Positions 566 through 58,000 of a DNA stretch of 64,000 bases are shown here, piece after piece. This stretch comes from Sialis fuliginosa (Eukaryota; Arthropoda; Insecta; Megaloptera; Sialidae), in contig OY540818.1 of the NCBI GenBank assembly GCA_961205875.1, positions 914,001 through 978,000 of the forward strand, given 5' to 3'. The stretch's first letter is position 1. The number at the start of each line of letters is the position of its first letter. Made by a program: the position numbers and the translations under genes. The notes below the pieces were generated by a model. That model was not told the origin of the DNA. It was given only the letters and a program-made list of their open reading frames with translations, and ran no database searches.

Positions 566-577
566 TCCATACTAATA

Positions 578-3064: not shown

Positions 3065-4039
3065 TATTATAAATGCGAAAGTGTGTCTGTCTGTCTGTCT
3101 GTCTGTCTGTTACCTTTTCACGGCTAAACCACTGAACCGATCTTGATGAAATTTGGCAGTGAGATAGCTTGCATCCCGTGGACGGACATAGGCTACTTCG
3201 TATCTCGAAAATTCAACCCCTATTGAATTGCAAGGGGGTGGAAATATTTTATTTTTTTCAGTAATTAATATTTTACCCCCCGTTACATATGTAGGGTTGT
3301 AAGTGGTTTCATTAGATCCGGCGGGAAAAATACTACGGGGGTAAGGGTTTTAGGAGGAAAAACAACCCTCTATCTCGCATAGGAGCCGAGATATTTACGA
3401 TTTTGTATAATGAAAGAAAACCAAAAATAAGACAATTTTTATATTTTACCCCCTGTCGCATATGAGGGGTTGTCATTGGTTTCGTTTAATCTGTTGGAAA
3501 AAATACTACGGAAGAGGGGTTTCTAGAGGGAAAAATCAACCCCTTATCTGATCATCTCGCATAGGAGTCGACACTTATATTATAAATGCGAAAGCGTGTT
3601 TCTCAGTCTGTCTATTTGTTACGTGTTCACGGCTAAACCGCTTAACCGATCTTGATGAAATTTGGCAGCGAGATAGATTGCATCCAGAGAATGTATATAG
3701 GCTACTTCGTATCTCGAAATTTCAACCCCTATTGAATTGCAAGGGGGTGGAAATATTTTATTTTTTTCAGTAATTAATATTTTACCCCCCGTTACATATG
3801 AAGGGTTGTAAGTGGTTTCATTAGATCCGGCGGGAAAAATACTACGGGAGCGGGGGTTTCAGGGGGAAAAACAACCCTCTATCTCGCATAGGAGCCGAGA
3901 TATTTACGATTTTGTATAATGAAGAAAACCAAAAATAAGAATATTTTAATATTTCGTCCCCTGTCACATATGAAGGGTTGTTATTGGTTTCAATTTTGCT
4001 TGTATTTTAATTTTTATTTTATTATAATTTATTTATTTT

Positions 4040-6949: not shown

Positions 6950-6951
6950 AA
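5527..6951 (-). pseudogene. Penelope-like RT/GIY-YIG polyprotein, N-terminally truncated
   Basis: The 474-aa frame begins at LIKLHKVNNPVRPI, which is about residue 417 of the full protein at 34582. The whole N-terminal region and the start of the RT are therefore missing. It keeps RT motif A (LDVKSLFTN), motif B (GAPMGSS), the catalytic YVDD, and the C-terminal GIY-YIG region (IYKLKCS...YSYLGQS...RINSH). The frame is free of stops but has no genuine start, so it is a dead fragment as it stands. It could be read only as part of a longer transcript. The protein is identical to its inverted partner at 6955-8304 over the shared part. Confidence 0.9.
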
Positions 6952-6954
6952 AAA

Positions 6955-8304
6955 TTGTCAAAATTTTTCTCTGATATTTTAAAAAATATTACTGCTAATA
7001 ATAATACCGTGAGAGACTCTTGGGAATTCCATGAATTTATTAAAGATTTTCATATACCTAATAAATATAAATTAATTTCACTTGATGTTAAATCATTGTT
7101 TACTAACATACCTATCGATACTACTATTGAGATTATCACTAATAAATGGGAAGAAATAAAAAAATACACTAATATTGAGAAGGACGATTTTATTGATGGT
7201 TTGAAATTTTGTTGCAATACGTCATATTTCCAGTTTAAAAATCAATTTTATTCACAAATTTATGGAGCACCTATGGGTTCATCTCTATCTGTTGTTTTGG
7301 CTGATATTATTATGAACGAACTACAAGAGTCTGTTTTGAAAAATGTAGATTATGAGATTCCTTTTTTTAAAAGATATGTTGATGACATCATTACAGCAAT
7401 ACCTTCGGATAAAATTGAAACTTTATGCAATAGCTTTAATTCTTTTCATGATAGATTACAATTTTCTTATGAACTTGAAAATCAAAATAGAGAAATTAGT
7501 TTTTTAGATATAAAAATTTTGGTTAACAAACATAATAAAGTTGAAACCATATGGTATACTAAACCTACCTGGTCTGCTAGATATTTGAACTACAATTCTA
7601 ATTCCTCTATTGAACATAAACGTAATGTTATTACTGCTATTTTAGACCGGGCAATTAAATTCACTAATTTTAAATATAGAAGTCAAATACTCAACAAAGT
7701 TTACAATATTTTCTTATTAAATGGTTATCCCATTAATTTTCTTAAAAACACTATAAATAATAGACTCAAAAGTATACTTTATGGACATAATAAAAATAGT
7801 AAAAGTTTGGCTGTTGCAGAAAATTCCAATTACTCTTATGATGATCAAATATATTTTTCATTCCCGTATATACCTATTTTATCTGAAAAAATGAAAAGAG
7901 TTGTTTCTGGACATAATATAAAAATGATAAACAAAAATAAGTATACTACAAAAATTTTTTTTTCTAAATTAAAAAATAAAACTGATAAGATGAAATGTTC
8001 TAACGTTATTTATAAACTTAAATGTTCTTGTGATTATTCTTACTTAGGGCAATCTAAACAATACTTGCAAAAGAGAATCAACAGTCATAAATATGCTAAA
8101 AATGAAGTTACTGCACTTCGTACCCATATACAACAGACTGGTCACGAAGTTGAATATGGTGATGTTGAAATTTTAGATTTTCAGCCTATTTTAAAAAAAA
8201 GATTACTTAGTGAATCGTTACATATCTTAAAAGAACCTAAATGTCTTAACTCTAGAGAAAATCTTAATCACCTCAAAGAATCATATCTAAATTTAATTAA
8301 ATAA
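6955..8304 (+). pseudogene. Penelope-like RT/GIY-YIG polyprotein, N-terminally truncated
   Basis: The 449-aa frame corresponds to about residues 441-889 of the full protein at 34582. RT motif A (LDVKSLFTN), motif B (GAPMGSS) and YVDD are present, as is the C-terminal GIY-YIG endonuclease with YKLKCS, YLGQS and RINSH. The upstream part of the RT, including the KLHK/RPIV region, is absent because of the head-to-head junction at 6946. The apparent methionine is fortuitous (a TTG codon in the alignment to full copies), so this is an inactive fragment. Confidence 0.9.
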
Positions 8305-9045
8305 ATTTTCTTTTTTCCTCTTTCTTCTTCTTTCCACGTTGCTTTTTGCTTGTATTGTATGCCATTTTTTGGTTTTTCTATTAATTTTAACTTTTTTCAT
8401 TTTTGTTTGATTAGGTATATGTTTTAGTTTGATTTTGTTGGTTTTTGTTCCCCTTTTTTTCTCTCTTTTTAAAAAATTTTTAAAAAATTCTTTCTAGGTT
8501 ACCTTGTACTTAAAATTGACATTTAACATAGATAAGATTTTTGTTTTCCATAGATGTAATAAATATAATTAAGTTTGTAATACTAGTGCTTTTCTTTCAT
8601 TGAAACACTAGTAATTTTATTTCTTTTTTCATGTTTGTATAATAAATTTGTAACTAGTTTTAAGTAAAAACAATTGATGGTTCTTGTTTAATTAAGTTTT
8701 ATCTTAGTATAAATACTTTTCAACATGTGATACAATGTGATACGAATTTTATTTATTTTTAACGTTTTTAAACTAAATTTTTAAGTTTTAATGTTTTAAA
8801 GAAATTGTTTTTATATATTGTTTTATCTGTTGGATATCACATTTACATATTTTTAGTCTTTTGTACAAGAATGGGTACTTTTTAATATTTAAAAAAAATT
8901 TTTTTGATGTAATATGCATCTTTTACTACATACATATGGTCACACTAATTACTGTTTAAATTGTAAGTAAAAAAAATATGTTTATATCTATGAATATCTT
9001 GTTCATTTGCTTATGTTACTTACTTATGTTTATGATTTCTTATAG

Positions 9046-9122
9046 GGATAATTATTAATTTCTGATGAAGACAAAAATGTTGAAAATTAAAATAAGCGCT
9101 ATTAATTAAAATGATTTGAACA
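9046..9122 (+). ncRNA. Hammerhead ribozyme candidate of the Penelope-like element
   Basis: Core CTGATGA at 9062-9068, stem II ACA/TGT with an AAAA loop, GAAA at 9082-9085, stem III ATTAA.../TTAAT, then TA with predicted cleavage after 9108. Stem I would pair AATTT with AAAT and then continue with mismatches. The same elements occur in every Penelope-like copy in the window that retains its 3' part. Confidence 0.65.
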
Positions 9123-9654
9123 TTGGTTTAGTTCTTTAATTAATATTTTGACCTAAAAAAAAACCCCTACAAAATAGGTATATTTAAATAATATCAAGAT
9201 GGTCATATATATGAATACTTATATATGTATATATATATATGTGGTGAGTATTTTTCAGGGACTTTTTATATATCCAGTGTATTATTTGGGGACATTTGTA
9301 TACATCGGGGACAGGTCTCGAAAAATCCACATATTAATTGTATTTTTCGGGGACATTCCGTATATATGCACAGTATATATTTAACGACTACTTCGGGGAC
9401 CTAAATTAATATACATGGAATACCAACAGATGGCGCTACCGTGATTGTTTTTAAAACTGGTTTGACCAGATCAGTGATTTTTCAAGCAATGTCGATTTAT
9501 TTTGTTATTCACTTTAAAGGGCCGTATTCTGAAAAAAATGTTTTTATATTCTAATTAAATATTAAAATACCAAATTGATTTGTGGAGTTAATAATTAAAC
9601 CAAATAATAATTATTCAAATTATTATTATTGCTTAAATTGTTTGTATGTATATT

Positions 9655-10749: not shown

Positions 10750-10755
10750 GAATAG
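10750..10755. repeat. Target-site duplication GAATAG, left
   Basis: GAATAG precedes the palindromic element here and follows it at 25145-25150. The uninterrupted site in copy B reads CTTAACGAATAGGTACTTCGG with a single GAATAG (57731-57736). This fixes both ends of the insertion to the base. Confidence 0.95.
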
Positions 10756-10919
10756 AGTAGAGGAGTCAAGTCACTCCTGGCTCAATTGTTCATGATTTTC
10801 CCGCTAGATGTCGCCACATGTACTTTAATCAAATTCATAGCCTATCAAGGTTTGTATCTTTGCTAAGCGGTTTGTATATTTGCTAAGTGTATCATTCTTG
10901 GAATTTATTTCAGGGGGGT

Positions 10920-11690
10920 GGTGAAGCGGGGGTTAACGTATACGCGGGTGAAGCCGCGGTATATTAAAATTAGAATTGAATTATATATTACAACTAAATA
11001 CATAAAAATAGCTAAATCAGCGAAATGTTGTTGCAGGTGTTCTAGATATCATATTACATTCTTGGAATATTGTCTCTGAAATTATTTATTTATGTAAATT
11101 AGACCAAGAAGATTTAGATAATTAAATTAAATAATATTCAGAAGCCATTCTGATTGATAGATTAGTTATTGTAGGGGTGAAGCGGGGGTTAACGTATACG
11201 CGGGTGAATCTTAGAAAATTGTCTCTGAAATTATTTATTTGTGCAAATTAGACCAAGAAGATTTAGATAATTAAATTAAAAAATATTCAGAAGCCATTCT
11301 GATTGATAGATTAGATAGTGGAGAGGTAAAGCAGGGGTATAAAATTTATATTCGCTATGCAGCAGGTATATCATATTACATTCTTGGAATATTGTCTCTG
11401 AAATTATTTATTTGTTTCAACACATAATAAGAAGATAAAGATAATTAAATTTAAAAAAAAATATTCAGAAGCCATTCTGATTGATAGATTAGTTAGTGGA
11501 GAGGTGAAGCCACGGTATAAAATGTATAATTGAAAGTATATTTGCAATGAAGCTATGTTGATGTAAGTGTTTTAGATATTATATTACATTCTAGGAATTT
11601 TTCTGATTATAATTATTTTTAAATTGTCTTTGGAATTAATTATTTGTGCACAATGAATATAAATTAAACCAACACATAACAAAAAGTAAC
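10920..11690 (+). repeat. Degenerate tandem modules inside the left arm
   Basis: Motifs such as GAAGCGGGGGTTAACGTATA (10923, 11169), AATATTCAGAAGCCATTCTG, TTGTCTCTGAAATTATTTAT and GACCAAGAAGATTTAGATAA recur three or four times between 10920 and 11690 with a spacing of about 120-250 bp. The mirror set lies at about 24210-24980. No coding frame is seen. The recurrent CGCGGGTGAAGCCGCGG is a small GC hairpin. Confidence 0.65.
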
Positions 11691-11691
11691 A

Positions 11692-12482
11692 AAAAGATTT
11701 AGATAATTAAATATAAATAAAAAATATTCAGAAGTCATTTCAAAAAATTATAAATGAAAGTATATCTTAACCACTGAAAATGTTGATATAAAGTACAAGT
11801 GTTCTATATAGCATATTAAATTCGTCGCAAGTCATTGTTGCAATAAGGCTATCTGTCGGGTTCACAGGTCAAGTTATAGACACATATATATATAAAATTC
11901 TTAAAATATGGTCGCTGTCAAGTGCAGGTGTCTAAAATTAACAATTTGTATGTGCACGAAAAATGTAAGCGAACGTTTAGACCAACATATAATAAATTTT
12001 AAAAAAAATTTGATGGTTATATACAAGTAAAAAATATTGAAAATAAATTAAAAATCATGCATATCGATAATCGTAGCAGGACTAAACAAAAAGATTTAGA
12101 TAATTAAATATAAATAAAAAATATTCAGAAGTCATTTCAAAAAATTATAATTGAAAGTATAGCTTAACCACTGAAAATGTTAATATAAAGTACAAGTGTT
12201 CTATATAGCATATTAAATTCGTCGCAAGTCATTGTTGCAATAAGGCTATCTGTCGGGTTCACAGGTCAAGTTATAGACACATATATATAAAATTCTTAGA
12301 ATATGGTCGCTGTCAAGTGCAGGTGTCTAAAATTAACAATTTGTATGTGCACGAAGAATGTAAGCGAACGTTTAGATAAGCATATAATAAATTTAAAAAA
12401 AAAAAATTTATGGTTATATACAAGTAAAAAATATTGAAAATAAATTAAAAATCATGCATATCGATAATCGTAGCAGGACTAA
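11692..12482 (+). repeat. Tandem duplication (about 395 bp) just upstream of the 222-aa ORF
   Basis: Two adjacent copies (about 11692-12085 and 12086-12482) share AGATTTAGATAATTAAATA, CTGTCGGGTTCACAGGTCAA, GGTCGCTGTCAAGTGCAGG and ATGCATATCGATAATCGTAG in the same order with few differences. The second copy runs directly into the leader of the ORF at 12557. The mirror copies are at about 23418-24208. The likely promoter region is therefore present twice per arm. Confidence 0.8.
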
Positions 12483-12556
12483 CGGTATTGTAACATGCAC
12501 TGAAATCAGTTCTTAACGAGTCTCCGCCAGAAGAAGAGATATCTGAAATTACAACA

Positions 12557-13225
12557 ATGGAACTGAAAACATTTTTAAAACAATTTATATTCGATGCTTT
12601 GAACCAAGGTATCAAATACGATTTTTTAAAATATATATTAGATGAATTTCCTATGCTCATAAATTCAGATGTAAATATTTTGTCATTTGCGATTAATTCC
12701 GGTTGTGGCGAGCAAGAAGTGGAATATATCATCGATGTAAAGAAACGTTACATGCACGATATAGAAGTTCAGTATTTCACGTCTGCTAATCAATCTGCAG
12801 AAGAATTATACAAAACTCTAATCGCGTTGTGTACAGAAAATGATAATCTAATAAAATATGTTCGCGATTGTGATACATCAAATTATGAAGAAATGCATGC
12901 AGCGTATAAATGCTGGTTAGAGCAGAATGGTTTGACGAAATTTCTAAACGCAGCAGTACGAGTTGCAGTCGAAGTCGCAAATCCTGTGGTTCTTAGAACA
13001 TTAATAGAACAAGCAAAAAAGGAAAATGTAAAAATAGATTTTGATCCTACACGATTCGATGAAGATGCAAGAATTTTGGAATGTATTAAATTGGTCATCA
13101 GAGAAAATGAAGAAGACTCGTATTTCATATTATCAAAATCAGAAAATCCTAATTTGAATACCTCAAATAATTTAAACCATTACTATGATGTAGCAAGTAT
13201 ATTGGAACAGGAATTTAATATATAA
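12557..13225 (+). CDS. 222-aa uncharacterised protein, left-arm copy
   Basis: I do not recognise a family with confidence. The protein starts MELKTFLKQFIFDALNQG and looks wholly helical, with repeats of the type ...LSFAINSG...EVEYIID and ...VVLRTLIEQAKKE that recall degenerate ankyrin-like helix pairs. There is no signal peptide or membrane segment. It is acidic, especially near 175-190 (DEDARILECIKLVIRENEED). Codon use is more balanced than in the surrounding AT-rich DNA. A polyadenylation signal AATAAA follows 47 bp after the stop. The frame is identical in the mirror copy at 22675-23343, so both copies are intact. The tandem 395-bp repeat immediately upstream probably holds its promoter. 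A real gene is likely; its function is unknown. Confidence 0.7.
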   Translation: MELKTFLKQFIFDALNQGIKYDFLKYILDEFPMLINSDVNILSFAINSGCGEQEVEYIIDVKKRYMHDIEVQYFTSANQSAEELYKTLIALCTENDNLIKYVRDCDTSNYEEMHAAYKCWLEQNGLTKFLNAAVRVAVEVANPVVLRTLIEQAKKENVKIDFDPTRFDEDARILECIKLVIRENEEDSYFILSKSENPNLNTSNNLNHYYDVASILEQEFNI

Positions 13226-13271
13226 TATTATATTTTATTTGATTGTACTTACATATGTATTTGAATTGTGG

Positions 13272-13277
13272 AATAAA
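13272..13277 (+). promoter_or_regulatory. Polyadenylation signal AATAAA after the 222-aa ORF
   Basis: AATAAA lies 47 bp downstream of stop codon 13225 in GTGGAATAAAAAATATTTAG. It is the first canonical signal after the stop and supports expression of the ORF as an independent short mRNA. Confidence 0.5.
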
Positions 13278-13689
13278 AAATATTTAGAGTTGAAATGAGT
13301 TACTTATTTAAAGCTTAAAAATGTATTTCTATAGTTCTTAATTAAACAATAACAATGATTGAGAAAGATATTAAAATATATATTATATCTATATTAATAC
13401 ATACAATAATTAAACAAAGGAAAAAATAAAAATAATAATTAAGAGCAATAATGTCAGCTCTCTACCCAGTAGAAAAAAATATATAGTCGCACGAACAGTT
13501 AGCAGTATTATCAAGATGTTTCGAATTTCCGATTAAGTTGCATAGAATTATGTCTACAAAATTAAAATTTCAGTCACATAAATAAAATATAATAAAAATG
13601 TAATCTATTTTACAATTAAAATTATTTTACATTAACTGTACGTGGTTTTTCTTAGCTTCGTTAGCCATATCTGCATTATTTTGAACATT

Positions 13690-14150
13690 TGGAAGCACTA
13701 TAAAATTTCAGTAATATTAGTATACACAGAAAAACTATTTATACACTGTGAAAATATATAAGGAAATTTTAAAGAAAACTACATAAATATTATAGATCTT
13801 GAGGATATAAAGTAAAAGTTTAATTGTATTAAATTATTATTTCTGCATTACATTAAAATTTAATATCTCTATAACAAATAAACACACTATTAGTCAGTCA
13901 TACTATATTCATTGTTTTAGACTATTTAGACATTCGGATTCGAGATATGAACTTTCGGTAATATTATGGGTACGCAGGAAAAAATATTTATATATTATTG
14001 ATATATAATGGAAGATTTTAAAAGAAACTACATAAATATTATATACTTCCAAAACATTCAGTAAAATTTTGAATTGTAATATTATATTATTATTTTACAT
14101 TAAAATATAATTTAATAAACACAAATCTCCGTATTATTTTTTTTTTTAAA
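13690..14150 (+). repeat. Two diverged copies of a 190-250 bp module (third partial copy near 17204)
   Basis: Both copies (13690-13890 and 13940-14150) contain GGTAATATTA or AGTAATATTAG, a variant of GAAAATATATAAGGAAATTTT, the core AACTACATAAATATTATA and a terminal ATTAAAAT...AATAAACAC. A third occurrence at 17228-17300 has CACTGTGAATATAAAAG...GAAACTACATAAATATTTTAG. The module is repeated within one arm and mirrored in the other. No protein frame is maintained, so it may be a structural or transcribed non-coding repeat. Confidence 0.55.
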
Positions 14151-14199
14151 CTACATTAAATATTAATATATCTGCAACGTATAAACATTATTGACACCA

Positions 14200-15237
14200 G
14201 TGTTGGTCGCTTTAAGAGCAGGGTATACTGTTTCTTGTTATTCTCATGAACTCATATTACTAATATTTAAAGCAAGTACATTCTTTATTAAATCAATTTA
14301 ATCACCAAAGTCCGCAAATATAGTTTTTTAATTATAGCCTATTATTTTGTTTATGTTTTCTCTCCAGTAATGAATAAAGTAAAACTAGTAATGAGCACGC
14401 AGTGATGGACACTTACTAATGATTAAAAAATAATATGTACTACGACACAAAAGTTATAAAATAAAGAACCGTAAAATTAGAAACAATATAAAGCAGATTA
14501 TGTGATAATATAATTAATAAATAAATTACACTAATAATTAGTTGAAATGTTCACCATTTTGACACACATTGGCCGATTGTCATCAAATTAAGCTGTTTTA
14601 CAGTTATGTGTCTATAAATATTATGATTCAGTAATGACACTAATCAAATATCTACAAATATATTTTTTAATTTATTACATTTAATTAAACAAGAGTCTAA
14701 CACTGGGGTATTGTCTAAGACTGGTGTCAGTATCTTACCAGAATCTAATTTATCAGAAAGTTTGTTAAATTATTATGCTCTAAGTTGTCTAAGACACTAC
14801 ATAATTTCCAATACTTTCATTACACTTAATTAATACACAGAGCAATATTTATTTTTTAAGCATCGTTCTTATAACAGTTTTATAAAATTGAATAAAAAAA
14901 TAATTATGTATAAAAAATAGAATTTAATAAACAAAAATCTCTGTATTATCACAACAACTATAACAGATAAATAATAAAATTTATTATAACCTCTATACAA
15001 CTGTTTTACTTGTCTCACACAGTTTTGTAATTTTCGTAATTAACAACAATTCTTAAATTAAATTTCATATTAAAATTCTAGCATACAATCGATGTTCTTA
15101 GACATTATTTTGAAAAATTATTTGGGTTTAATTTTGTAAATTTATTATTGCGCTTTGGTAAGGCAGCTATTTAAACCATACACCACTTAATTTTATTTTA
15201 TTTTATTTTTTTGTAGGATTAAATTATTTTATAGATG
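14200..15237. other. No recognisable gene
   Basis: AT-rich part of the left arm (mirror about 20665-21702). I see no long frame, promoter or simple repeat beyond weak recurrences such as CACTGGGGTATTGTCTAAGAC and ACACCAGTGTTGGTCGC. It is probably decayed element sequence. Confidence 0.5.
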
Positions 15238-15365
15238 GTGTCCGTTAAAAAACTACAAACTTTCAAAAATAAAAGTTACAAAACGCAATTTTTAAATGTA
15301 ACACCCCTATATTTTGTATCTTAAAGTATATAACTTTCAATTCTCTACAACTTTCGTATAGTATA

Positions 15366-15497
15366 ATGGAACCTAAATATCCTTGGTCAGTATATCGTGT
15401 AGTAGAAAAATGTAAAGAGCCAAGGTCTTATGTTTTTGAAACACGGGAAGATGCAAGATATAGAAGAAACAGAAAACATCTGCTGATCACATATTAA
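15366..15497 (+). pseudogene. Pol/integrase C-terminal fragment (43 codons), left-arm copy
   Basis: The frame from ATG 15366 to TAA 15497 reads MEPKYPWSVYRVVEKCKEP followed by RSYVFETREDARYRRNRKHL. A tail of the form PRSY-V-T-(acidic)-RRNRKHL is characteristic of the segment after the integrase core in Ty3/Gypsy-type pol polyproteins. Nothing of the integrase catalytic core is found upstream, so only the extreme C-terminal end survives. It is either a relic of an integrase once carried by this element or a captured retrotransposon piece. The copy at 20405-20536 is identical in arrangement. The match is from memory of the motif and is not proven. Confidence 0.5.
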
Positions 15498-15799
15498 ATT
15501 TAAAATAAAGTTAAAAAAATAAAATAATTTTTTTGAATATTAACAATTAAAATTAAATTACATTTTTGTAAAAAACGAACATCTTACATATCTATACTAT
15601 TTATTAATATATAGGATAGTAAGCTATGAAGATATAAACTATAGGATAATTGAATATAATAATTTGATTGATAAAATGATGTATCAAAAAGATTAATAAA
15701 AACATAACAATAACTTTCCAGCACATAATTTAGATGGCTACTTAACTCCAAGAGGGGAAGTTGGTATAGCACGGAGAATATGTCAAAGTTTGTGGTGTG

Positions 15800-16620
15800 G
15801 GAATTAGATCGAATGTGGTGGGGGTAATTTCAAGGTTGTGGTATGAGTAAAAAAATAAAAAAAAAAAATGGTGACGTCATATTCTAAAAATAAAATATTA
15901 CGTCATGTTCTATTTATAGAAATAATTAATTCATTAAATGAGTTAGTTATTGTTTTAATAATGTTTTATTGCTGTGATTGTCTCTTTGTTATAGCTTTAC
16001 AAGATTTTGGGCTGTATTAGTATCTACTTATTAAATAATTTTGAAAATATAAAAAAATAGGTTATTTATATATGTATATATACAATCTGAGAATAGATGA
16101 ATCACTGTCATAACTTATAACTAAGAATATAATATTTTTAATTTTCAAATACATGGACCACTACTTAATTATACAGGAAAAATATGAAATTATTGCAATA
16201 GAATGTAACATCATGTTCTATTTATTGATAATAAATATTTAATCGTTGATGTATTGTTACTGATTCCTATTGTTAAAAATTTACAATATAATTATAGAGT
16301 TGTATTAGTACTTCTTAAATTATTCTGAAAATATGTAAATAGGTGATTTGTACAAAAAGTCTGAGAATATAATATAGTAATTTATTTTTATATAAAACAC
16401 AAAATATTTAAAACAATTAAATACATGATTGAAATATAAAGATTCGTAAAATATATATATACACATAAATAGAGAACATTGATATGGATAATAATTCAAT
16501 AAGTATAGAATATAAGACAACACAATTTTATATATATAAATATATCAAATATACATGTTGTTATGTTCTAGACAACATCTGTAAAATATTTTCATACACA
16601 AACAACACATCTTAGAATAT
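15800..16620. other. No recognisable gene
   Basis: AT-rich segment between the pol-like fragment and the 95-aa gene (mirror about 19282-20100). Short frames rich in Tyr, Phe and Leu occur but look like translation of AT-rich DNA. Two similar stretches, each ending in TTTTGAAAATAT or TTCTGAAAATATG followed by a GATTTGTA-like motif near 16040 and 16325, suggest an old internal duplication. Confidence 0.45.
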
Positions 16621-16640
16621 TATAGGAATTGTTTCTAACT

Positions 16641-16928
16641 TTATTTTGAAAAAACAATCTCAGACGATCTCATGTCTTCGTTTCCCCCATTGTATATCAT
16701 GTACAATTTGGGTGTATTATTGATCTCAATTATTTCCTGGTCAGTAAGACTCGAAAATCGTGCTGGTAGAAAAACTGAGAATTCTTGTAATTCTGACAAA
16801 ATACGTCTCCCAAACTGGGTTGAAAGTGCATTAATTTTCACAACAAGGTGCTTTTCACCAGGTGTCAATTCACTTATTTTCTTCAACTGTTTATTCTTCA
16901 ATGAACCAGCCTTGTTCAATAAATCCAT
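16641..16928 (-). CDS. 95-aa uncharacterised protein, left-arm copy
   Basis: The protein begins MDLLNKAGSLKNKQLKKISE and continues LTPGEKHLVVKINALSTQFG, then RRILSELQEFSVFLPARFSS and ends with KLYMIYNGG and a short tail. The pattern 'L-PGE-h-V--h---T-FG--h---L-----FLP-R--------I---N----LYMIY-G' resembles a family of short uncharacterised proteins I recall as common in arthropod genomes. The alternating strand-like stretches suggest a small beta-barrel, possibly OB-fold; this is inference. A TATAAATA box lies 88-95 bp upstream of the start on the minus strand (17016-17023). The mirror copy at 18974-19261 encodes the same protein. Confidence 0.7.
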   Translation of the reverse strand: MDLLNKAGSLKNKQLKKISELTPGEKHLVVKINALSTQFGRRILSELQEFSVFLPARFSSLTDQEIIEINNTPKLYMIYNGGNEDMRSSEIVFSK

Positions 16929-17015
16929 TTAATTATTACTAATAGTATTATTAAAAACCAATTCTTGTCAAACGAATGAAACAGATAAATTAAAATTATA
17001 TTAAATCCTACACGA

Positions 17016-17023
17016 TATTTATA
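17016..17023 (-). promoter_or_regulatory. TATA box for the 95-aa gene, left arm
   Basis: TATAAATA on the minus strand, 88-95 bp upstream of the ATG at 16928. The sequence after it (TCGTGTAGGATTTAA, then CTGTTTCATTCG) leaves room for a transcription start about 30 bp downstream and a leader of roughly 60 nt. It is identical in the mirror arm. Confidence 0.5.
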
Positions 17024-17334
17024 CTAGAAAATTTCAGAAAAGTGGTGGGAATGTTAAAACGTATGAATCCAACTGCAATGCTCGGATATTACATATTTTC
17101 ATAAGCACTGTAATACTACACACTCTGTACGATACCGATTTAACAAATACGTCCCATAATAAAAATTATAAAAAATTTTAGTTTAATATTTTTATAATAA
17201 AATTTGCTCAATGTTATTGGGGAAAAAATACACTGTGAATATAAAAGTCGAGATTTTAATAGAAACTACATAAATATTTTAGATTTTGAAGAAATACAGA
17301 AAAAAATATTATTGCTATGCGCAATCTTTTCTTC

Positions 17335-17530
17335 AGCTTTCTGTTCTCGTTCAAACAGCATTCTGTTCTCGTTCAAACAGCTTTCTGTTTTCTCCAAACA
17401 GCTTTCTGTTTTCTCCAAACAGCTTTCTGTTCTCGTTCAAACAGCTTTCTGTTCTCGTTCAAACAGCTTTCTGTTCTCGTTCAAACAGCTTTCTGTTCCC
17501 GTTCAAATAGCTATCTATGTATGTTCAAAC
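17335..17530 (+). repeat. 22-bp minisatellite, 9 units, left arm
   Basis: Nine units of AGCTTTCTGTTCTCGTTCAAAC, two of them 21 bp with TTTTCTCCAAAC. Order of types from 17335 is: normal, AGCATT variant, two CTCC variants, three normal, CCCG variant, TATGTATG variant. The mirror array has eleven units. All three frames translate without stops, which creates spurious ORFs here. Confidence 0.95.
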
Positions 17531-17915
17531 AGCTCCCCCCCCCCCTTCACTTTTTATAATGACACCTGCAAAGGTCATTGACCCCGCACCTGCAAAGGTC
17601 ATTGACCTACGCAGCTTTTTGTTTATGTTCAAACAGCCTTATCAGTTTTAAGTCTAGCAAGTCATGGTCACGGAAATCATTTAATATTTATGATTAAAAA
17701 ACCGAATTTATATTTCTTCCAGCATGCAGCAACACATATCTTGAAGTTTTTTTATTGTTACTATTATTAACAAGTAGTAGAAGTATTAGTATTCAGAAAA
17801 ACATGATGCATTGTTATTATTGATAACAACAACAACAATAGCATCAGATTTCAAGAATCCGGGATCCGCCCCCGGCGCCCCCCTCTACTTTTTATAATGA
17901 CACCTGCAAAGGTCA

Positions 17916-17943
17916 TTGACACCGCACCTGCCTAAAAGTTCAT
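17916..17943. other. Centre of the 14.4-kb palindrome
   Basis: The 28-bp asymmetric spacer between the arms is TTGACACCGCACCTGCC plus AAAAGTTCAT. It sits inside a short direct repeat, CACCTGCAAAGGTCATTGAC, that also occurs twice at about 17563-17610. The arms therefore meet within a repeat, which suggests that repeat took part in forming the inversion. Confidence 0.85.
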
Positions 17944-18328
17944 TGACCTTTGCAGGTGTCATTATAAAAAGTAGAGGGGGGCGCCGGGGGCGGATCCCGG
18001 ATTCTTGAAATCTGATGCTATTGTTGTTGTTGTTATCAATAATAACAATGCATCATGTTTTTCTGAATACTAATACTTCTACTACTTGTTAATAATAGTA
18101 ACAATAAAAAAACTTCAAGATATGTGTTGCTGCATGCTGGAAGAAATATAAATTCGGTTTTTTAATCATAAATATTAAATGATTTCCGTGACCATGACTT
18201 GCTAGACTTAAAACTGATAAGGCTGTTTGAACATAAACAAAAAGCTGCGTAGGTCAATGACCTTTGCAGGTGCGGGGTCAATGACCTTTGCAGGTGTCAT
18301 TATAAAAAGTGAAGGGGGGGGGGGAGCT

Positions 18329-18567
18329 GTTTGAACATACATAGATAGCTATTTGAACGGGAACAGAAAGCTGTTTGAACGAGAACAGAAAGCTGTTTGA
18401 CCGAGAACAGAAAGCTGTTTGGAGAAAACAGAAAGCTGTTTGAACGAGAACAGAAAGCTGTTTGAACGAGAACAGAAAGCTGTTTGGAGAAAACAGAAAG
18501 CTGTTTGGAGAAAACAGAAAGCTGTTTGAACGAGAACAGAATGCTGTTTGAACGAGAACAGAAAGCT
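18329..18567 (-). repeat. 22-bp minisatellite, 11 units, right arm
   Basis: Mirror of 17335-17530 with two more units (one 22 bp, one 21 bp), exactly accounting for a 43-bp length difference between the arms at this point. It also has a private variant unit (GACCGAGAAC). The arms have thus diverged by repeat-number change while the rest stayed nearly identical. Confidence 0.95.
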
Positions 18568-18878
18568 GAAGAAAAGATTGCGCATAGCAATAATATTTTT
18601 TTCTGTATTTCTTCAAAATCTAAAATATTTATGTAGTTTCTATTAAAATCTCGACTTTTATATTCACAGTGTATTTTTTCCCCAATAACATTGAGCAAAT
18701 TTTATTATAAAAATATTAAACTAAAATTTTTTATAATTTTTATTATGGGACGTATTTGTTAAATCGGTATCGTACAGAGTGTGTAGTATTACAGTGCTTA
18801 TGAAAATATGTAATATCCGAGCATTGCAGTTGGATTCATACGTTTTAACATTCCCACCACTTTTCTGAAATTTTCTAG

Positions 18879-18886
18879 TATAAATA
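18879..18886 (+). promoter_or_regulatory. TATA box for the 95-aa gene, right arm
   Basis: TATAAATA in TTTTCTAGTATAAATATCG, 88-95 bp before the ATG at 18974. It is the mirror of 17016-17023. Confidence 0.5.
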
Positions 18887-18973
18887 TCGTGTAGGATTTA
18901 ATATAATTTTAATTTATCTGTTTCATTCGTTTGACAAGAATTGGTTTTTAATAATACTATTAGTAATAATAAA

Positions 18974-19261
18974 ATGGATTTATTGAACAAGGCTGGTTCA
19001 TTGAAGAATAAACAGTTGAAGAAAATAAGTGAATTGACACCTGGTGAAAAGCACCTTGTTGTGAAAATTAATGCACTTTCAACCCAGTTTGGGAGACGTA
19101 TTTTGTCAGAATTACAAGAATTCTCAGTTTTTCTACCAGCACGATTTTCGAGTCTTACTGACCAGGAAATAATTGAGATCAATAATACACCCAAATTGTA
19201 CATGATATACAATGGGGGAAACGAAGACATGAGATCGTCTGAGATTGTTTTTTCAAAATAA
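18974..19261 (+). CDS. 95-aa uncharacterised protein, right-arm copy
   Basis: Identical protein to the left-arm copy (16641-16928). The ATG at 18974 was chosen over an upstream in-frame ATG at 18941 because the left arm uses the same start and the TATA spacing suits it. Predicted features: a basic, Lys-rich N-terminal 20 residues, then strand-rich segments with TQFG and FLPARF, and a C-terminal LYMIYNGG. The stop codon overlaps an AATAAA (19257-19262), a possible polyadenylation signal. The function is not known; a small nucleic-acid-binding protein is one possibility. Confidence 0.7.
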   Translation: MDLLNKAGSLKNKQLKKISELTPGEKHLVVKINALSTQFGRRILSELQEFSVFLPARFSSLTDQEIIEINNTPKLYMIYNGGNEDMRSSEIVFSK

Positions 19262-20404
19262 AGTTAGAAACAATTCCTATAATATTCTAAGATGTGTTGT
19301 TTGTGTATGAAAATATTTTACAGATGTTGTCTAGAACATAACAACATGTATATTTGATATATTTATATATATAAAATTGTGTTGTCTTATATTCTATACT
19401 TATTGAATTATTATCCATATCAATGTTCTCTATTTATGTGTATGTATATATTTTACGAATCTTTATATTTCAATCATGTATTTAATTGTTTTAAATATTT
19501 TGTGTTTTATATAAAAATAAATTACTATATTATATTCTCAGACTTTTTGTACAAATCACCTATTTACATATTTTCAGAATAATTTAAGAAGTACTAATAC
19601 AACTCTATAATTATATTGTAAATTTTTAACAATAGGAATCAGTAACAATACATCAACGATTAAATATTTATTATCAATAAATAGAACATGATGTTACATT
19701 CTATTGCAATAATTTCATATTTTTCCTGTATAATTAAGTAGTGGTCCATGTATTTGAAAATTAAAAATATTATATTCTTAGTTATAAGTTATGACAGTGA
19801 TTCATCTATTCTCAGATTGTATATATACATATATAAATAACCTATTTTTTTATATTTTCAAAATTATTTAATAAGTAGATACTAATACAGCCCAAAATCT
19901 TGTAAAGCTATAACAAAGAGACAATCACAGCAATAAAACATTATTAAAACAATAACTAACTCATTTAATGAATTAATTATTTCTATAAATAGAACATGAC
20001 GTAATATTTTATTTTTAGAATATGACGTCACCATTTATTTTTTTTATTTTTTTACTCATACCACAACCTTGAAATTACCCCCACCACATTCGATCTAATT
20101 CCCACACCACAAACTTTGACATATTCTCCGTGCTATACCAACTTCCCCTCTTGGAGTTAAGTAGCCATCTAAATTATGTGCTGGAAAGTTATTGTTATGT
20201 TTTTATTAATCTTTTTGATACATCATTTTATCAATCAAATTATTATATTCAATTATCCTATAGTTTATATCTTCATAGCTTACTATCCTATATATTAATA
20301 AATAGTATAGATATGTAAGATGTTCGTTTTTTACAAAAATGTAATTTAATTTTAATTGTTAATATTCAAAAAAATTATTTTATTTTTTTAACTTTATTTT
20401 AAAT

Positions 20405-20536
20405 TTAATATGTGATCAGCAGATGTTTTCTGTTTCTTCTATATCTTGCATCTTCCCGTGTTTCAAAAACATAAGACCTTGGCTCTTTACATTTTTCTAC
20501 TACACGATATACTGACCAAGGATATTTAGGTTCCAT
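20405..20536 (-). pseudogene. Pol/integrase C-terminal fragment, right-arm copy
   Basis: Mirror of 15366-15497. It has the same 43-codon frame with the RSYVFET...RRNRKHL tail and no integrase core nearby. Confidence 0.5.
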
Positions 20537-22674
20537 TATACTATACGAAAGTTGTAGAGAATTGAAAGTTATATACTTTAAGATACAAAATATAGGGGTG
20601 TTACATTTAAAAATTGCGTTTTGTAACTTTTATTTTTGAAAGTTTGTAGTTTTTTAACGGACACCATCTATAAAATAATTTAATCCTACAAAAAAATAAA
20701 ATAAAATAAAATTAAGTGGTGTATGGTTTAAATAGCTGCCTTACCAAAGCGCAATAATAAATTTACAAAATTAAACCCAAATAATTTTTCAAAATAATGT
20801 CTAAGAACATCGATTGTATGCTAGAATTTTAATATGAAATTTAATTTAAGAATTGTTGTTAATTACGAAAATTACAAAACTGTGTGAGACAAGTAAAACA
20901 GTTGTATAGAGGTTATAATAAATTTTATTATTTATCTGTTATAGTTGTTGTGATAATACAGAGATTTTTGTTTATTAAATTCTATTTTTTATACATAATT
21001 ATTTTTTTATTCAATTTTATAAAACTGTTATAAGAACGATGCTTAAAAAATAAATATTGCTCTGTGTATTAATTAAGTGTAATGAAAGTATTGGAAATTA
21101 TGTAGTGTCTTAGACAACTTAGAGCATAATAATTTAACAAACTTTCTGATAAATTAGATTCTGGTAAGATACTGACACCAGTCTTAGACAATACCCCAGT
21201 GTTAGACTCTTGTTTAATTAAATGTAATAAATTAAAAAATATATTTGTAGATATTTGATTAGTGTCATTACTGAATCATAATATTTATAGACACATAACT
21301 GTAAAACAGCTTAATTTGATGACAATCGGCCAATGTGTGTCAAAATGGTGAACATTTCAACTAATTATTAGTGTAATTTATTTATTAATTATATTATCAC
21401 ATAATCTGCTTTATATTGTTTCTAATTTTACGGTTCTTTATTTTATAACTTTTGTGTCGTAGTACATATTATTTTTTAATCATTAGTAAGTGTCCATCAC
21501 TGCGTGCTCATTACTAGTTTTACTTTATTCATTACTGGAGAGAAAACATAAACAAAATAATAGGCTATAATTAAAAAACTATATTTGCGGACTTTGGTGA
21601 TTAAATTGATTTAATAAAGAATGTACTTGCTTTAAATATTAGTAATATGAGTTCATGAGAATAACAAGAAACAGTATACCCTGCTCTTAAAGCGACCAAC
21701 ACTGGTGTCAATAATGTTTATACGTTGCAGATATATTAATATTTAATGTAGTTTAAAAAAAAAAAATAATACGGAGATTTGTGTTTATTAAATTATATTT
21801 TAATGCAAAATAATAATATAATATTACAATTCAAAATTTTACTGAATGTTTTGGAAGTATATAATATTTATGTAGTTTCTTTTAAAATCTTCCATTATAT
21901 ATCAATATATAAATATTTTTTCCTGCGTACCCATAATATTACCGAAAGTTCATATCTCGAATCCGAATGTCTAAATAGTCTAAAACAATGAATATAGTAT
22001 GACTGACTAATAGTGTGTTTATTTGTTATAGAGATATTAAATTTTAATGTAATGCAGAAATAATAATTTAATACAATTAAACTTTTACTTTATATCCTCA
22101 AGATCTATAATATTTATGTAGTTTTCTTTAAAATTTCCTTATATATTTTCACAGTGTATAAATAGTTTTTCTGTGTATACTAATATTACTGAAATTTTAT
22201 AGTGCTTCCAAATGTTCAAAATAATGCAGATATGGCTAACGAAGCTAAGAAAAACCACGTACAGTTAATGTAAAATAATTTTAATTGTAAAATAGATTAC
22301 ATTTTTATTATATTTTATTTATGTGACTGAAATTTTAATTTTGTAGACATAATTCTATGCAACTTAATCGGAAATTCGAAACATCTTGATAATACTGCTA
22401 ACTGTTCGTGCGACTATATATTTTTTTCTACTGGGTAGAGAGCTGACATTATTGCTCTTAATTATTATTTTTATTTTTTCCTTTGTTTAATTATTGTATG
22501 TATTAATATAGATATAATATATATTTTAATATCTTTCTCAATCATTGTTATTGTTTAATTAAGAACTATAGAAATACATTTTTAAGCTTTAAATAAGTAA
22601 CTCATTTCAACTCTAAATATTTTTTATTCCACAATTCAAATACATATGTAAGTACAATCAAATAAAATATAATA

Positions 22675-23343
22675 TTATATATTAAATTCCTGTTCCAATA
22701 TACTTGCTACATCATAGTAATGGTTTAAATTATTTGAGGTATTCAAATTAGGATTTTCTGATTTTGATAATATGAAATACGAGTCTTCTTCATTTTCTCT
22801 GATGACCAATTTAATACATTCCAAAATTCTTGCATCTTCATCGAATCGTGTAGGATCAAAATCTATTTTTACATTTTCCTTTTTTGCTTGTTCTATTAAT
22901 GTTCTAAGAACCACAGGATTTGCGACTTCGACTGCAACTCGTACTGCTGCGTTTAGAAATTTCGTCAAACCATTCTGCTCTAACCAGCATTTATACGCTG
23001 CATGCATTTCTTCATAATTTGATGTATCACAATCGCGAACATATTTTATTAGATTATCATTTTCTGTACACAACGCGATTAGAGTTTTGTATAATTCTTC
23101 TGCAGATTGATTAGCAGACGTGAAATACTGAACTTCTATATCGTGCATGTAACGTTTCTTTACATCGATGATATATTCCACTTCTTGCTCGCCACAACCG
23201 GAATTAATCGCAAATGACAAAATATTTACATCTGAATTTATGAGCATAGGAAATTCATCTAATATATATTTTAAAAAATCGTATTTGATACCTTGGTTCA
23301 AAGCATCGAATATAAATTGTTTTAAAAATGTTTTCAGTTCCAT
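22675..23343 (-). CDS. 222-aa uncharacterised protein, right-arm copy
   Basis: Encodes the same 222 residues as 12557-13225, so neither copy has drifted. It has the same helical, acidic, ankyrin-like character and the same tandem repeat upstream (about 23418-24208). Two intact divergently placed copies separated by about 9 kb are a direct consequence of the palindrome. Confidence 0.7.
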   Translation of the reverse strand: MELKTFLKQFIFDALNQGIKYDFLKYILDEFPMLINSDVNILSFAINSGCGEQEVEYIIDVKKRYMHDIEVQYFTSANQSAEELYKTLIALCTENDNLIKYVRDCDTSNYEEMHAAYKCWLEQNGLTKFLNAAVRVAVEVANPVVLRTLIEQAKKENVKIDFDPTRFDEDARILECIKLVIRENEEDSYFILSKSENPNLNTSNNLNHYYDVASILEQEFNI

Positions 23344-25144
23344 TGTTGTAATTTCAGATATCTCTTCTTCTGGCGGAGACTCGTTAAGAACTGATTTCAG
23401 TGCATGTTACAATACCGTTAGTCCTGCTACGATTATCGATATGCATGATTTTTAATTTATTTTCAATATTTTTTACTTGTATATAACCATAAATTTTTTT
23501 TTTTTAAATTTATTATATGCTTATCTAAACGTTCGCTTACATTCTTCGTGCACATACAAATTGTTAATTTTAGACACCTGCACTTGACAGCGACCATATT
23601 CTAAGAATTTTATATATATGTGTCTATAACTTGACCTGTGAACCCGACAGATAGCCTTATTGCAACAATGACTTGCGACGAATTTAATATGCTATATAGA
23701 ACACTTGTACTTTATATTAACATTTTCAGTGGTTAAGCTATACTTTCAATTATAATTTTTTGAAATGACTTCTGAATATTTTTTATTTATATTTAATTAT
23801 CTAAATCTTTTTGTTTAGTCCTGCTACGATTATCGATATGCATGATTTTTAATTTATTTTCAATATTTTTTACTTGTATATAACCATCAAATTTTTTTTA
23901 AAATTTATTATATGTTGGTCTAAACGTTCGCTTACATTTTTCGTGCACATACAAATTGTTAATTTTAGACACCTGCACTTGACAGCGACCATATTTTAAG
24001 AATTTTATATATATATGTGTCTATAACTTGACCTGTGAACCCGACAGATAGCCTTATTGCAACAATGACTTGCGACGAATTTAATATGCTATATAGAACA
24101 CTTGTACTTTATATCAACATTTTCAGTGGTTAAGATATACTTTCATTTATAATTTTTTGAAATGACTTCTGAATATTTTTTATTTATATTTAATTATCTA
24201 AATCTTTTTGTTACTTTTTGTTATGTGTTGGTTTAATTTATATTCATTGTGCACAAATAATTAATTCCAAAGACAATTTAAAAATAATTATAATCAGAAA
24301 AATTCCTAGAATGTAATATAATATCTAAAACACTTACATCAACATAGCTTCATTGCAAATATACTTTCAATTATACATTTTATACCGTGGCTTCACCTCT
24401 CCACTAACTAATCTATCAATCAGAATGGCTTCTGAATATTTTTTTTTAAATTTAATTATCTTTATCTTCTTATTATGTGTTGAAACAAATAAATAATTTC
24501 AGAGACAATATTCCAAGAATGTAATATGATATACCTGCTGCATAGCGAATATAAATTTTATACCCCTGCTTCACCTCTCCACTATCTAATCTATCAATCA
24601 GAATGGCTTCTGAATATTTTTTAATTTAATTATCTAAATCTTCTTGGTCTAATTTGCACAAATAAATAATTTCAGAGACAATTTTCTAAGATTCACCCGC
24701 GTATACGTTAACCCCCGCTTCACCCCTACAATAACTAATCTATCAATCAGAATGGCTTCTGAATATTATTTAATTTAATTATCTAAATCTTCTTGGTCTA
24801 ATTTACATAAATAAATAATTTCAAAGACAATATTCCAAGAATGTAATATGATATCTAGAACACCTGCAACAACATTTCGCTGATTTAGCTATTTTTATGT
24901 ATTTAGTTGTAATATATAATTCAATTCTAATTTTAATATACCGCGGCTTCACCCGCGTATACGTTAACCCCCGCTTCACCACCCCCCTGAAATAAATTCC
25001 AAGAATGATACACTTAGCAAATATACAAACCGCTTAGCAAAGATACAAACCTTGATAGGCTATGAATTTGATTAAAGTACATGTGGCGACATCTAGCGGG
25101 AAAATCATGAACAATTGAGCCAGGAGTGACTTGACTCCTCTACT

Positions 25145-25150
25145 GAATAG
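25145..25150. repeat. Target-site duplication GAATAG, right
   Basis: Partner of 10750-10755. Downstream sequence GTACTTCGGGGACAATTATT continues copy A exactly as in copy B at 57737. Confidence 0.95.
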
Positions 25151-27470: not shown

Positions 27471-27679
27471 AATAGTTTAACGGCTAAAATATTGTAATAA
27501 AAATTAAAATAAAATTGTTTTTTTATTCGGAGTTGTATTTTACAAGTTTTTCAATAACAAAAAAAGGGTGTCTCAAAAAATACGCTGGACATATATATAT
27601 ATATATACATATATTTAAATATACCTATTTTGTAGGGGTTTTTTTTTCAGGTCAAAATATTAATTAAAGAACTAAACCA

Positions 27680-27756
27680 ATGTTCAAATCATTTTAATTA
27701 ATAGCGCTTATTTAATTTTCAACATTTTTGTCTTCATCAGAAATTAACAAATTATC
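27680..27756 (-). ncRNA. Hammerhead ribozyme candidate
   Basis: Minus-strand CTGATGA at 27734-27740, then the ACA/TGT stem, GAAA and the stem III ATTAA.../TTAAT as in the other copies. Confidence 0.65.
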
Positions 27757-28516
27757 ACTATAAGAAATCATAAACATAAGTAAGTAACATAAGCAGATGA
27801 ACAAGATATTTCTAGATGTAAACATATTTTTTTTTTTACTTACAATTTAAACAGTAATTGGTGTGTACATTTGTATGTAGTAAAAGATGCATAATTACAT
27901 CAAAAAAATTTTTATTTTTATTTTTTAATATTAAAAAGTACCCATTCTTGTACAAAAGACTAAAAATATGTAAATGTGATATCAAACAGATAAAACAATA
28001 TATAAAAACAATTTTTTTTAAAAATTAAAACTTAAAATTTAGTTTAAAAACGTTAAAAATTAATAAAATTCGTATCACATTATATCACATGTTGAAAAGT
28101 ATTTATAATAAGATAAAGCTTAATTAAACAAGAAACATCAATTGTTTTTACTTAAAAATAGTTACAAATTTATTATACAAACATGAAAAAAAAAAAAGAA
28201 ATAAAATTACTAGTGTTTCAATGAACGAAAAGCACTAGTATTACAAACTTAATTATATTTATTTACATCTATGGAAAACAAAAATCTTATCTATGTTAAA
28301 TGTCAATTTTAAGTACAAGGTAACCTAGAAAAAATTTTTTTTAAAAATTAATAAAAGAGAGAAAAAAAGGAACATAAAACCATCAAAATCAAACTAAAAC
28401 ATATACCTAATCAAACAAAAATGAAAAAAGATAAAATTAATAGAAAAACCAAAAAATGGCATACAATACAAGCAAAAAGAAACGTAGAAAAAAGAAGAAA
28501 GAGGAAAAAAGAAAAT

Positions 28517-30985: not shown

Positions 30986-31052
30986 AAATTTAGGAAATAC
31001 TAATACTAATACTAATACTAATATAAAAAACACTGGGGATGATAAGTGTAAT

Positions 31053-33668: not shown

Positions 33669-34429
33669 ATTTTCTTTTTTCCTCTTTCTTCTTTTTTCTA
33701 CGTTTCTTTTTGCTTGTATTGTATGCCATTTTTTGGTTTTTCTATTAATTTTATCTTTTTTCATTTTTGTTTGATTAGGTATATGTTTTAGTTTGATTTT
33801 GATGGTTTTATGTTCCTTTTTTTCTCTCTTTTATTAATTTTTAAAAAAAATTTTTTCTAGGTTACCTTGTACTTAAAATTGACATTTAACATAGATAAGA
33901 TTTTTGTTTTCCATAGATGTAAATAAATATAATTAAGTTTGTAATACTAGTGCTTTTCGTTCATTGAAACACTAGTAATTTTATTTCTTTTTTTTTTTTT
34001 CATGTTTGTATAATAAATTTGTAACTATTTTTAAGTAAAAACAATTGATGTTTCTTGTTTAATTAAGCTTTATCTTATTATAAATACTTTTCAACATGTG
34101 ATATAATGTGATACGAATTTTATTAATTTTTAACGTTTTTAAACTAAATTTTAAGTTTTAATTTTTAAAAAAAATTGTTTTTATATATTGTTTTATCTGT
34201 TTGATATCACATTTACATATTTTTAGTCTTTTGTACAAGAATGGGTACTTTTTAATATTAAAAAATAAAAATAAAAATTTTTTTGATGTAATTATGCATC
34301 TTTTACTACATACAAATGTACACACCAATTACTGTTTAAATTGTAAGTAAAAAAAAAAATATGTTTACATCTAGAAATATCTTGTTCATCTGCTTATGTT
34401 ACTTACTTATGTTTATGATTTCTTATAGT

Positions 34430-34505
34430 GATAATTTGTTAATTTCTGATGAAGACAAAAATGTTGAAAATTAAATAAGCGCTATTAATTAAAATGATTT
34501 GAACA
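34430..34505 (+). ncRNA. Hammerhead ribozyme candidate, unit 1/2 boundary
   Basis: CTGATGA 34446-34452, stem II ACA-AAAA-TGT, GAAA 34466-34469, stem III ATTAAATA/TATTAAT (34470-34489 with loop AGCGC), then T34490 A34491 and predicted cleavage after 34491. Cleavage here and at 38074 would release one 3,583-nt RNA carrying the whole ORF of unit 2. Confidence 0.7.
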
Positions 34506-34581
34506 TTGGTTTAGTTCTTTAATTAATATTTTGACCTGAAAAAAAACCCCTACAAAATAGGTATATTTAAATAATATCAAG

Positions 34582-49980: not shown

Positions 49981-49989
49981 AAATAAATT

Positions 49990-57131: not shown

Positions 57132-58000
57132 ATATATCTATCTCTTTTTCTAATAAGATTGAAATAGACACTACTGTTTAAAAAAGGACAAGTATGTCCT
57201 AAACCTATTTCAATATCTTTCTTTTGACACGGCTCTGTTTTCAAGTCAGATACGCAATCCATTCTCTATATCTTTTACCATAACGGTATTCGTACCATTA
57301 TGTGACAGATGAGTTATACGCATGCGCATAAAATGTACCGCGAAATTTAAAAAAAGTTATTTTTTAAATTCTTTTTCTTTATCTTTTGTATTTCATTTAA
57401 ACTTGATATTGATATGAAATTACTTAATTAGATATTAATAAGTCTTAATAATAATATATCAACTGTCATTTGTTAAATATTCGGTTATTTATGATCTCTT
57501 TTTTTGGAAAGATAATTTGAAAGTCCATGTACGTTGTATGTCTTTACAAATGGATAACATATAAAAATATGATTTTTATTTTCAAATAAACGTACATTAT
57601 GTTTTTAAATATTTGGAAAAATGTATAAATATGTTATTTGTGTCTTCACATCAGTTATGAATGATATTTCAAGAAATTTATAAGTAAACATTTTTGCAAT
57701 AATTTGACAGTTTTATTTCTTCTACTTAACGAATAGGTACTTCGGGGACAATTATTATTTGTATGTATCACCATGGGCGTAGTCAGACTTTTGTTCAGGG
57801 GGGGAGGATTTTTTTTTTAAACCGGTTTAGTAGGCGTGTTTGCCTAGGACCCCGTGGAAAAGGAAGGGGGGGGGGGGTCGAATAGTCGGTAGTTAATCTT
57901 TTTGGATGTTGAAGAGCAAACAATGCTCCCACATTATTATGGTACCCTTACCTAAAAAGTTTTATAAACATGTCTTGAGGCTTCCGCGGTGGTCTTGATA

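Follow-up and report, generated by a model that had tools for sequence, protein, structure and literature searches.

Palindromic 14-kb elements in the Sialis fuliginosa genome, probably derived from Polintons

A 64,000-nucleotide (nt) stretch of the Sialis fuliginosa genome (C10:914001-978000, contig OY540818.1; hereafter the window), part of a 392-Mb assembly of 20 contigs, contains a near-perfect palindrome that inserted as a whole and belongs to a dispersed family of palindromes. We consider it probable that the element is a non-autonomous derivative of a Polinton/Maverick, namely two arms joined head-to-head at one terminus into a pseudo-dimer that Polinton enzymes acting in trans mobilise in palindromic form. 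The layout of the window copy, in window positions, is as follows.

10756..25144, no strand: the whole palindromic element, 14,389 bp, near-perfect
10750..10755, plus strand: left target-site duplication (TSD), GAATAG
25145..25150, plus strand: right TSD, GAATAG
10756..17915, plus strand: left arm, with the outer end AGTAGAGGAGTCAAG
17944..25144, minus strand: right arm, the left arm inverted
17916..17943, plus strand: asymmetric centre of 28 nt (hairpin loop)
17334..17534, plus strand: minisatellite with a 22-bp unit, mirrored at 18325-18568, the two lengths being 43 bp apart
57731..57736, plus strand: intact target site GAATAG in a paralogous copy of the flank

Alignment of the two arms of the window copy revealed six substitutions, two indels (3 bp and 1 bp), and minisatellites that differ in length by 43 bp. 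A second copy of the flanking sequence, at 57131-58988, contains GAATAG once and no element. Since GAATAG stands on both sides of the palindrome and singly in the flank copy, the whole palindrome entered as one unit. An earlier note on this DNA, made from its letters alone, had described the 14,389-bp palindrome, its duplication, the empty site, and insertion as a single unit; coordinates, ends and site were all as claimed, and both duplications and the uninterrupted flank copy were seen. With up to three mismatches allowed, the terminus AGTAGAGGAGTCAAG was found within the window only at both palindrome ends; exact occurrences in the genome numbered 8, compared with 1 for a reversed control.

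A genome search with the outer 300 bp of the element returned 37 matches, 16 of them at least 230 bp long. Five copies were full-length: the window copy (C10:924756-939144), C5:34237180-34251604, C3:34159969-34174542, C12:1407510-1421718, and C10:812628-830789. All five are palindromes, and four are flanked by perfect, distinct 6-bp TSDs (GAATAG, ATTTAC, TATTTT, and TTCGAC). The search for relatives that the earlier note had proposed thereby yielded four further full-length copies, each in flanks of its own and each palindromic. A sixth copy, on C8 (from 241285 downwards), is also palindromic but has a truncated second arm and a deletion at the centre; 3,290 bp of its arms are identical. An older copy (96-98% identity) running downwards from C10:908836 stops at an AT microsatellite, and no second arm was present in the sequence read, down to 899300. 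At the C11, C8 (6.8 Mb), and C7 matches, ~230-325 bp of the end were left in the stretches read. No intact non-palindromic copy was found in the genome searches with the outer end.

The loop is identical in the window and C5 copies and stands in reversed orientation in the C12 and C10:812628-830789 copies; C3 and C8 have another centre type in common. A loop common to four copies and a second centre common to two imply that the palindromic state is inherited within each subfamily, and we infer at least two events in which the centre arose or was altered. Individual copies also carry a 3.65-kb one-arm insertion (C10:812628-830789), a 544-bp one-arm duplication (C3), and centre deletions (C12 and C8). 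The C12 palindrome runs on at 100% identity for 598 bp into both flanks (C12:1406912-1407509 and 1421719-1422316), and this flank belongs to a repeat family that forms several inverted pairs in the genome.

The genome also contains candidate helper elements. A six-frame search for protein-primed DNA polymerase B (PolB, PF03175) gave 43 matches, with 1,362-amino-acid (aa) open frames on several contigs; all 32 candidates (32 of 32) were scored. Two of the PolB genes are followed downstream by a gene for a BIR-domain protein (PF00653, 1.8e-10) and one for an adenovirus-type protease (PF00770, 4.4e-5 on C13 and 0.014 for a shortened frame on C9). Flanked by the TSD TACATA, the element at C13:1617090-1630573 shows AGTAGTAGGAAG at its ends and has a terminal inverted repeat (TIR) of ~745 bp; the element at C9:6876443-6890624 has the same ends and the TSD AGCGTT. 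The two are identical downstream of PolB to a point within the protease gene and different beyond it, with the 0.7 kb between this breakpoint and the verified inverted repeat of the C9 element lying outside the comparison. The right end of the C9 element is its left end inverted (99.8% over the 1,962 bp compared), and its protease frame is shortened relative to that on C13 at the inverted-end junction. This inverted end copy indicates that end-duplicating rearrangements happen in the PolB family. In two PolB elements, C9:6876443-6890624 and C7:7380337-7397522, a 194-aa open reading frame (ORF) is present at both ends, inverted.

A 20-mer of the AGTAGTAGG end had 35 exact occurrences in the genome and none for the reversed control, corresponding to 17 paired elements and one single end; a PF03175 match is enclosed by 11 of the 17. 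TSDs of 6 bp were present in all four elements checked, two with PolB (C9:6876443 and C13:1617090) and two without (C14:5157120 and C9:7855096). The six paired elements free of PF03175 (C14:5157120-5171436, C9:7855096-7869412, C13:1490350-1504670, C13:3034356-3048674, C14:3645908-3660225, and C1:24504444-24519318) are 14.3-14.9 kb long. That these might themselves be palindromes was rejected, since none of the four whose mid-parts were read is palindromic. In the parts read, the C14:5157120 element carries an integrase-like ORF (PF00665, E 0.0078, below the cut-off and seen in a cut piece), a protease frame that reads like that of the C13 element, and a relative of the 222-aa palindrome ORF described below; the mid-parts of three other PF03175-free elements match its mid-part at 100%. 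Polymerase and integrase are possibly carried by different elements, which would make the resident elements a Polinton system in two parts.

Two features link the palindromes to the PolB elements, the centre and an accessory gene. The relevant segments of the window copy, together with a further ORF of the arms, are the following.

17807..18052, no strand: centre homologous to the terminal region of PolB elements (~174-321), mirrored about the loop
17537..17616, minus strand: second block of homology to the PolB-element terminus, containing the iteron-like unit CACCTGCAAAGGTCATTGACC; mirror copy at 18243-18322
12557..13225, plus strand: 222-aa ORF, a relative of the 194-aa ORF of PolB elements
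22675..23343, minus strand: mirror copy of the 222-aa ORF
16641..16928, minus strand: 95-aa ORF without matches; mirror at ~18974-19261 on the plus strand, as derived from the arm alignment

Read outward from the loop, the centre matches positions ~102-321 of the PolB-element terminus in all five palindromes, the match in C3 being confined to the iteron part (102-210). For the inner 400 bp, the comparison with the terminus scored 89.7 bits; the maximum was 27.4 bits among 500 dinucleotide-block shuffles (423 of which aligned) and 29.2 bits among windows outside the inner repeats. The idea of a head-to-head dimer of a protein-primed element, raised in the earlier note, gains support from this homology between the centre and the terminal region of resident PolB elements. 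An CCTCTACT motif near the centre (17882-17889) was considered as a buried second terminus and rejected, because C3 has CCACCACT at that place and because the matching PolB-element stretch lies ~230 bp inside its end. In viral contigs, the centre 22-mer had no match, and the terminal 17-mer of the palindrome had one, which was taken as chance.

The accessory gene is shared as well. In a single comparison, the 222-aa ORF matched the 194-aa ORF of the PolB elements at 7e-8 (BLASTP) and 7e-9 (phmmer), and a shuffle control gave 0 of 1000 at 30 bits. A whole-genome protein search with the 222-aa ORF (E ≤ 0.1) returned 24 matches, half of them in the palindrome family; the other 12 are distant (27% identity), and all of these fall within 10 of the 11 PolB-bearing paired AGTAGTAGG elements. 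The weaker relative in the PolB-less C14 element (E 8e-6 in a single comparison) stands outside the genome-search matches. The ORF points toward the element end in C9 and toward the centre in the palindrome.

Concerning the ends, the most common termini given for vertebrate Mavericks in the relevant part of PMC8097293 are (AGT)2//(ACT)2, with 6-bp TSDs. The palindrome ends, AGTAGA...TCTACT, agree with these at five of six letters. Of the earlier note's attribution to Polintons by AG...CT ends and a 6-bp duplication, the AGT-type ends and the TSD (in four of the five copies) held, and the likeness of the outer repeat did not extend beyond AGTAG. The PolB gene sought in related copies was absent from the palindromes, and AGTAGTAGG-ended elements that carry it exist in the same genome.

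The arms have the length of 7.2 kb stated earlier but not the full gene set attributed to them, as each holds the 222-aa ORF and small ORFs only. Neither the 222-aa nor the 95-aa ORF had relatives in the protein database or in viral contigs, and the predicted structure of the latter was unusable (mean predicted local distance difference test score 43). Examined one by one against Pfam, the arm ORFs gave nothing over the cut-off, the minus frames not being scanned whole. Among the ten arms, five of the six variable sites of the 222-aa ORF alter the protein, including one that introduces a stop, so purifying selection on this ORF is not claimable. The nonsense change affects codon 206 in both arms of C12, and the C8 copy of the ORF has a stop too. 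A short frame at 15273-15497, with no Pfam match, ends in RYRRNRKHLL, presumably a resemblance to the end of a Ty3-type integrase.

The arms of each copy are much more alike than arms of different copies. Divergence was computed on 6,050 gap-free columns for the ten arms of the five full-length copies, with the inner arm part left out. Within copies it amounted to 0.099% (window copy), 0.033% (C5), 0.017% (C12), 0.017% (C3), and 0.033% (C10:812628), compared with 0.264-0.843% for the 40 arm pairs between copies (0.264-0.364% without C3). With the inner part included, pairwise identity of the C10:812628 arms was 99.88% over 2,476 bp and 99.73% over 4,366 bp; this lower identity indicates that the copy is less even near the repeats. 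The variable columns numbered 78, of which 66 were symmetric in every copy, 9 were private to one arm, and 3 were mixed, these three within-copy differences having alleles also present in other copies. Changes found in both arms of one copy and in no other copy numbered 4 (window copy), 7 (C5), 6 (C12), 37 (C3), and 7 (C10:812628), and those private to one arm 5, 1, 1, 0, and 2, respectively. Gap runs of up to 2,500 columns were symmetric in 18 cases and asymmetric in 8, the 3.65-kb one-arm insertion not being counted. With arms far closer within a copy than between copies and 66 of 78 columns symmetric, we conclude that arm symmetry is actively kept. Private changes found in both arms, the C12 nonsense change included, imply that one arm passes its changes to the other, whether during each mobilisation or within the chromosome. 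The five symmetric sites that are informative cannot be fitted to a single tree of the copies and so suggest that copies have recombined.

These observations are best accommodated as follows. At one of its termini, a linear molecule of Polinton type would have become linked head-to-head with a copy of itself; folding back at inverted iteron-like repeats close to that terminus is the probable route, and the fused end would lack at least its outermost 100 nt. The two outer ends left over (AGTAGAGG...) would then act as element ends and generate 6-bp target duplications on insertion, presumably through resident Polintons that supply integrase and polymerase in trans. The palindrome itself would be replicated by protein priming and integrated, and its symmetry may be maintained by hairpin intermediates, by arm-to-arm gene conversion, or by both. 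The non-autonomous derivative mobile in palindromic form that the earlier note had envisaged accords with a family of palindromic copies with distinct TSDs; mobilisation in trans is the presumptive part. As a Polinton proper the element fails, having no polymerase and inverted repeats that are the whole element; judged by TSD, end motif, centre and ORF, it fits a putative non-autonomous element derived from one.

Several points weigh against this derivation. The most serious is that the outer 300 bp have no clear homology to the PolB-element repeat past AGTAG and resemble it loosely after that; because the outer ends differ beyond this motif, the origin of the functional outer end is left unexplained, and this is where the argument is weakest. 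The C12 copy lacks a TSD. Helper genes were not found in the palindrome itself in the frames scanned: Pfam matches at E ≤ 0.1 were lacking in all three plus-strand frames of the left arm, and the six-frame genome search found no PF03175 match in the palindromes, in line with the earlier statement that no standard Polinton genes are present. Candidate helper elements, on which the palindrome would presumably depend, are present in the genome. The distant ORF matches are weak (E 0.03 in the whole-genome search), and the centre comparison covers the palindromes and the PolB-element terminus, not the genome-wide distribution of the centre.

How symmetry is kept divides the alternatives that accept the same element. 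We regard it as quite possible that ordinary chromosomal gene conversion between the arms evens them out after insertion, the palindrome being inherited and not rebuilt with each move. The loop common to four copies means that palindromes are inherited, the codon 206 nonsense change is in both C12 arms, and the three alleles common to other copies and the five conflicting sites are signs of recombination; moreover, the symmetry of C12 reaches 598 bp past the element and no TSD is present, as a conversion or break-repair tract that outran the element would leave it. The C12 flank symmetry may, however, pre-exist, given the inverted pairs of that repeat family, and unconverted asymmetries remain in the one-arm insertion and duplication of C10:812628-830789 and C3 and in the centre deletions of C12 and C8. 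Somewhat more tentatively, symmetry could be rebuilt at each mobilisation, when a displaced strand would fold into a full-length hairpin and be copied or mismatch-repaired, so that every copy would start with identical arms. Consistent with this, 9 of the 12 columns that separate the arms of a copy are confined to a single arm, no copy has an arm difference in 66 of 78 variable columns, the C8 arms are identical over the comparable 3,290 bp, and the genome encodes protein-primed polymerases that are strand-displacing by homology. The present data nevertheless fit gene conversion equally well, and the mixed and incompatible sites require recombination in addition. A bolder version, which we think unlikely, would make the palindrome the replicating form itself: an obligate self-complementary pseudo-dimer whose displaced strand snaps into a full-length hairpin each cycle, resetting the arms before integration, and which would parasitise a Polinton system with polymerase and integrase maybe on two same-ended elements.

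Two further readings concern the identity of the element. It is improbable that it is a cut-and-paste transposon of the foldback type that belongs to a different superfamily making 6-bp duplications and that picked up Polinton sequence in its middle. The genome has many inverted repeats, and the outer ends are unlike the PolB-element repeat past AGTAG, as such an origin would allow, but no transposase gene was found in the three forward left-arm frames, no related autonomous element was found, and the AGT ends, 6-bp TSD, centre and ORF all indicate Polintons. A 933-aa frame near the C11 family end (L015:4516-7317), with a tnp2-type transposase domain (PF02992, 3.8e-10), was considered as a CACTA-type transposase of the family and rejected; it is part of another repeat (C11:623309-627909), segments of which reappear at 640987-641689. 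An assembly or fold-back read artefact, which near-identical arms taken alone would suggest, is hardly credible, since the right flank matches the empty site and the family occupies several loci with distinct TSDs and private one-arm differences. The earlier note had named a lack of other copies together with read evidence for a chimera as one thing that would undo its case; four more full-length palindromic copies with their own flanks speak against both, and equally against chance.

The palindrome can be compared with several known systems. With Polintons/Mavericks (polintoviruses, adintoviruses) it has in common AGT-type ends and a 6-bp TSD, as given in the part of PMC8097293 that describes them. 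Its centre and one ORF are homologous to the PolB elements of this genome. It differs in having no polymerase gene and, in the frames scanned, no other Polinton genes, and in that its entire 7.2-kb arms are symmetric, whereas Polintons have TIRs of limited length around unique genes. SYREC adenovirus type 12 DNA is likewise palindromic, has the same viral end at both termini, and relies on a helper for protein-primed replication; unlike the window palindrome, it is an extrachromosomal virus product, without a chromosomal family with target duplications. In foldback elements (FB, Galileo), very long inverted repeats make up most of the element, as they do here. FB and Galileo have other TSD lengths and transposases, in contrast to the 6-bp TSD in four of the five full copies of the palindrome, whose TSD, centre, and ORF indicate Polintons. 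Arms much closer within a copy than between copies recall Y-chromosome-type palindromes, which undergo arm-to-arm gene conversion but are not mobile and have no target duplication. Among the literature matches listed, no palindromic Polinton was apparent from title or the start of the abstract.

If the proposed derivation is true, the family would parallel, among transposons, the symmetric defective genomes of viruses, and would be linked to a protein-primed system resident in the same genome. It would offer a natural system for the survival, copying, and symmetry of 14-kb palindromes in a eukaryotic genome, and would bear on whether Polintons replicate extrachromosomally in a form capable of fold-back.

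The window contains other inverted repeats. Head-to-head and tandem copies of another repeat occupy 4642-9190 and 27609-41743 and carry an ORF of 857-889 aa (343 aa in 4642-9190). This ORF had no Pfam match over the cut-off; we take it to resemble a Penelope-type reverse transcriptase with a GIY-YIG-like end. The element at 573-3069 has inverted arms of 1,065 bp that are 98.8% identical, and its ends presumably resemble those of Tc1/mariner. Finally, two inverted elements with CATTGAGTAAAGAATAACAAGAG ends, at 46315-51409 and 51620-55630, jointly form an imperfect palindrome of 9.3 kb.

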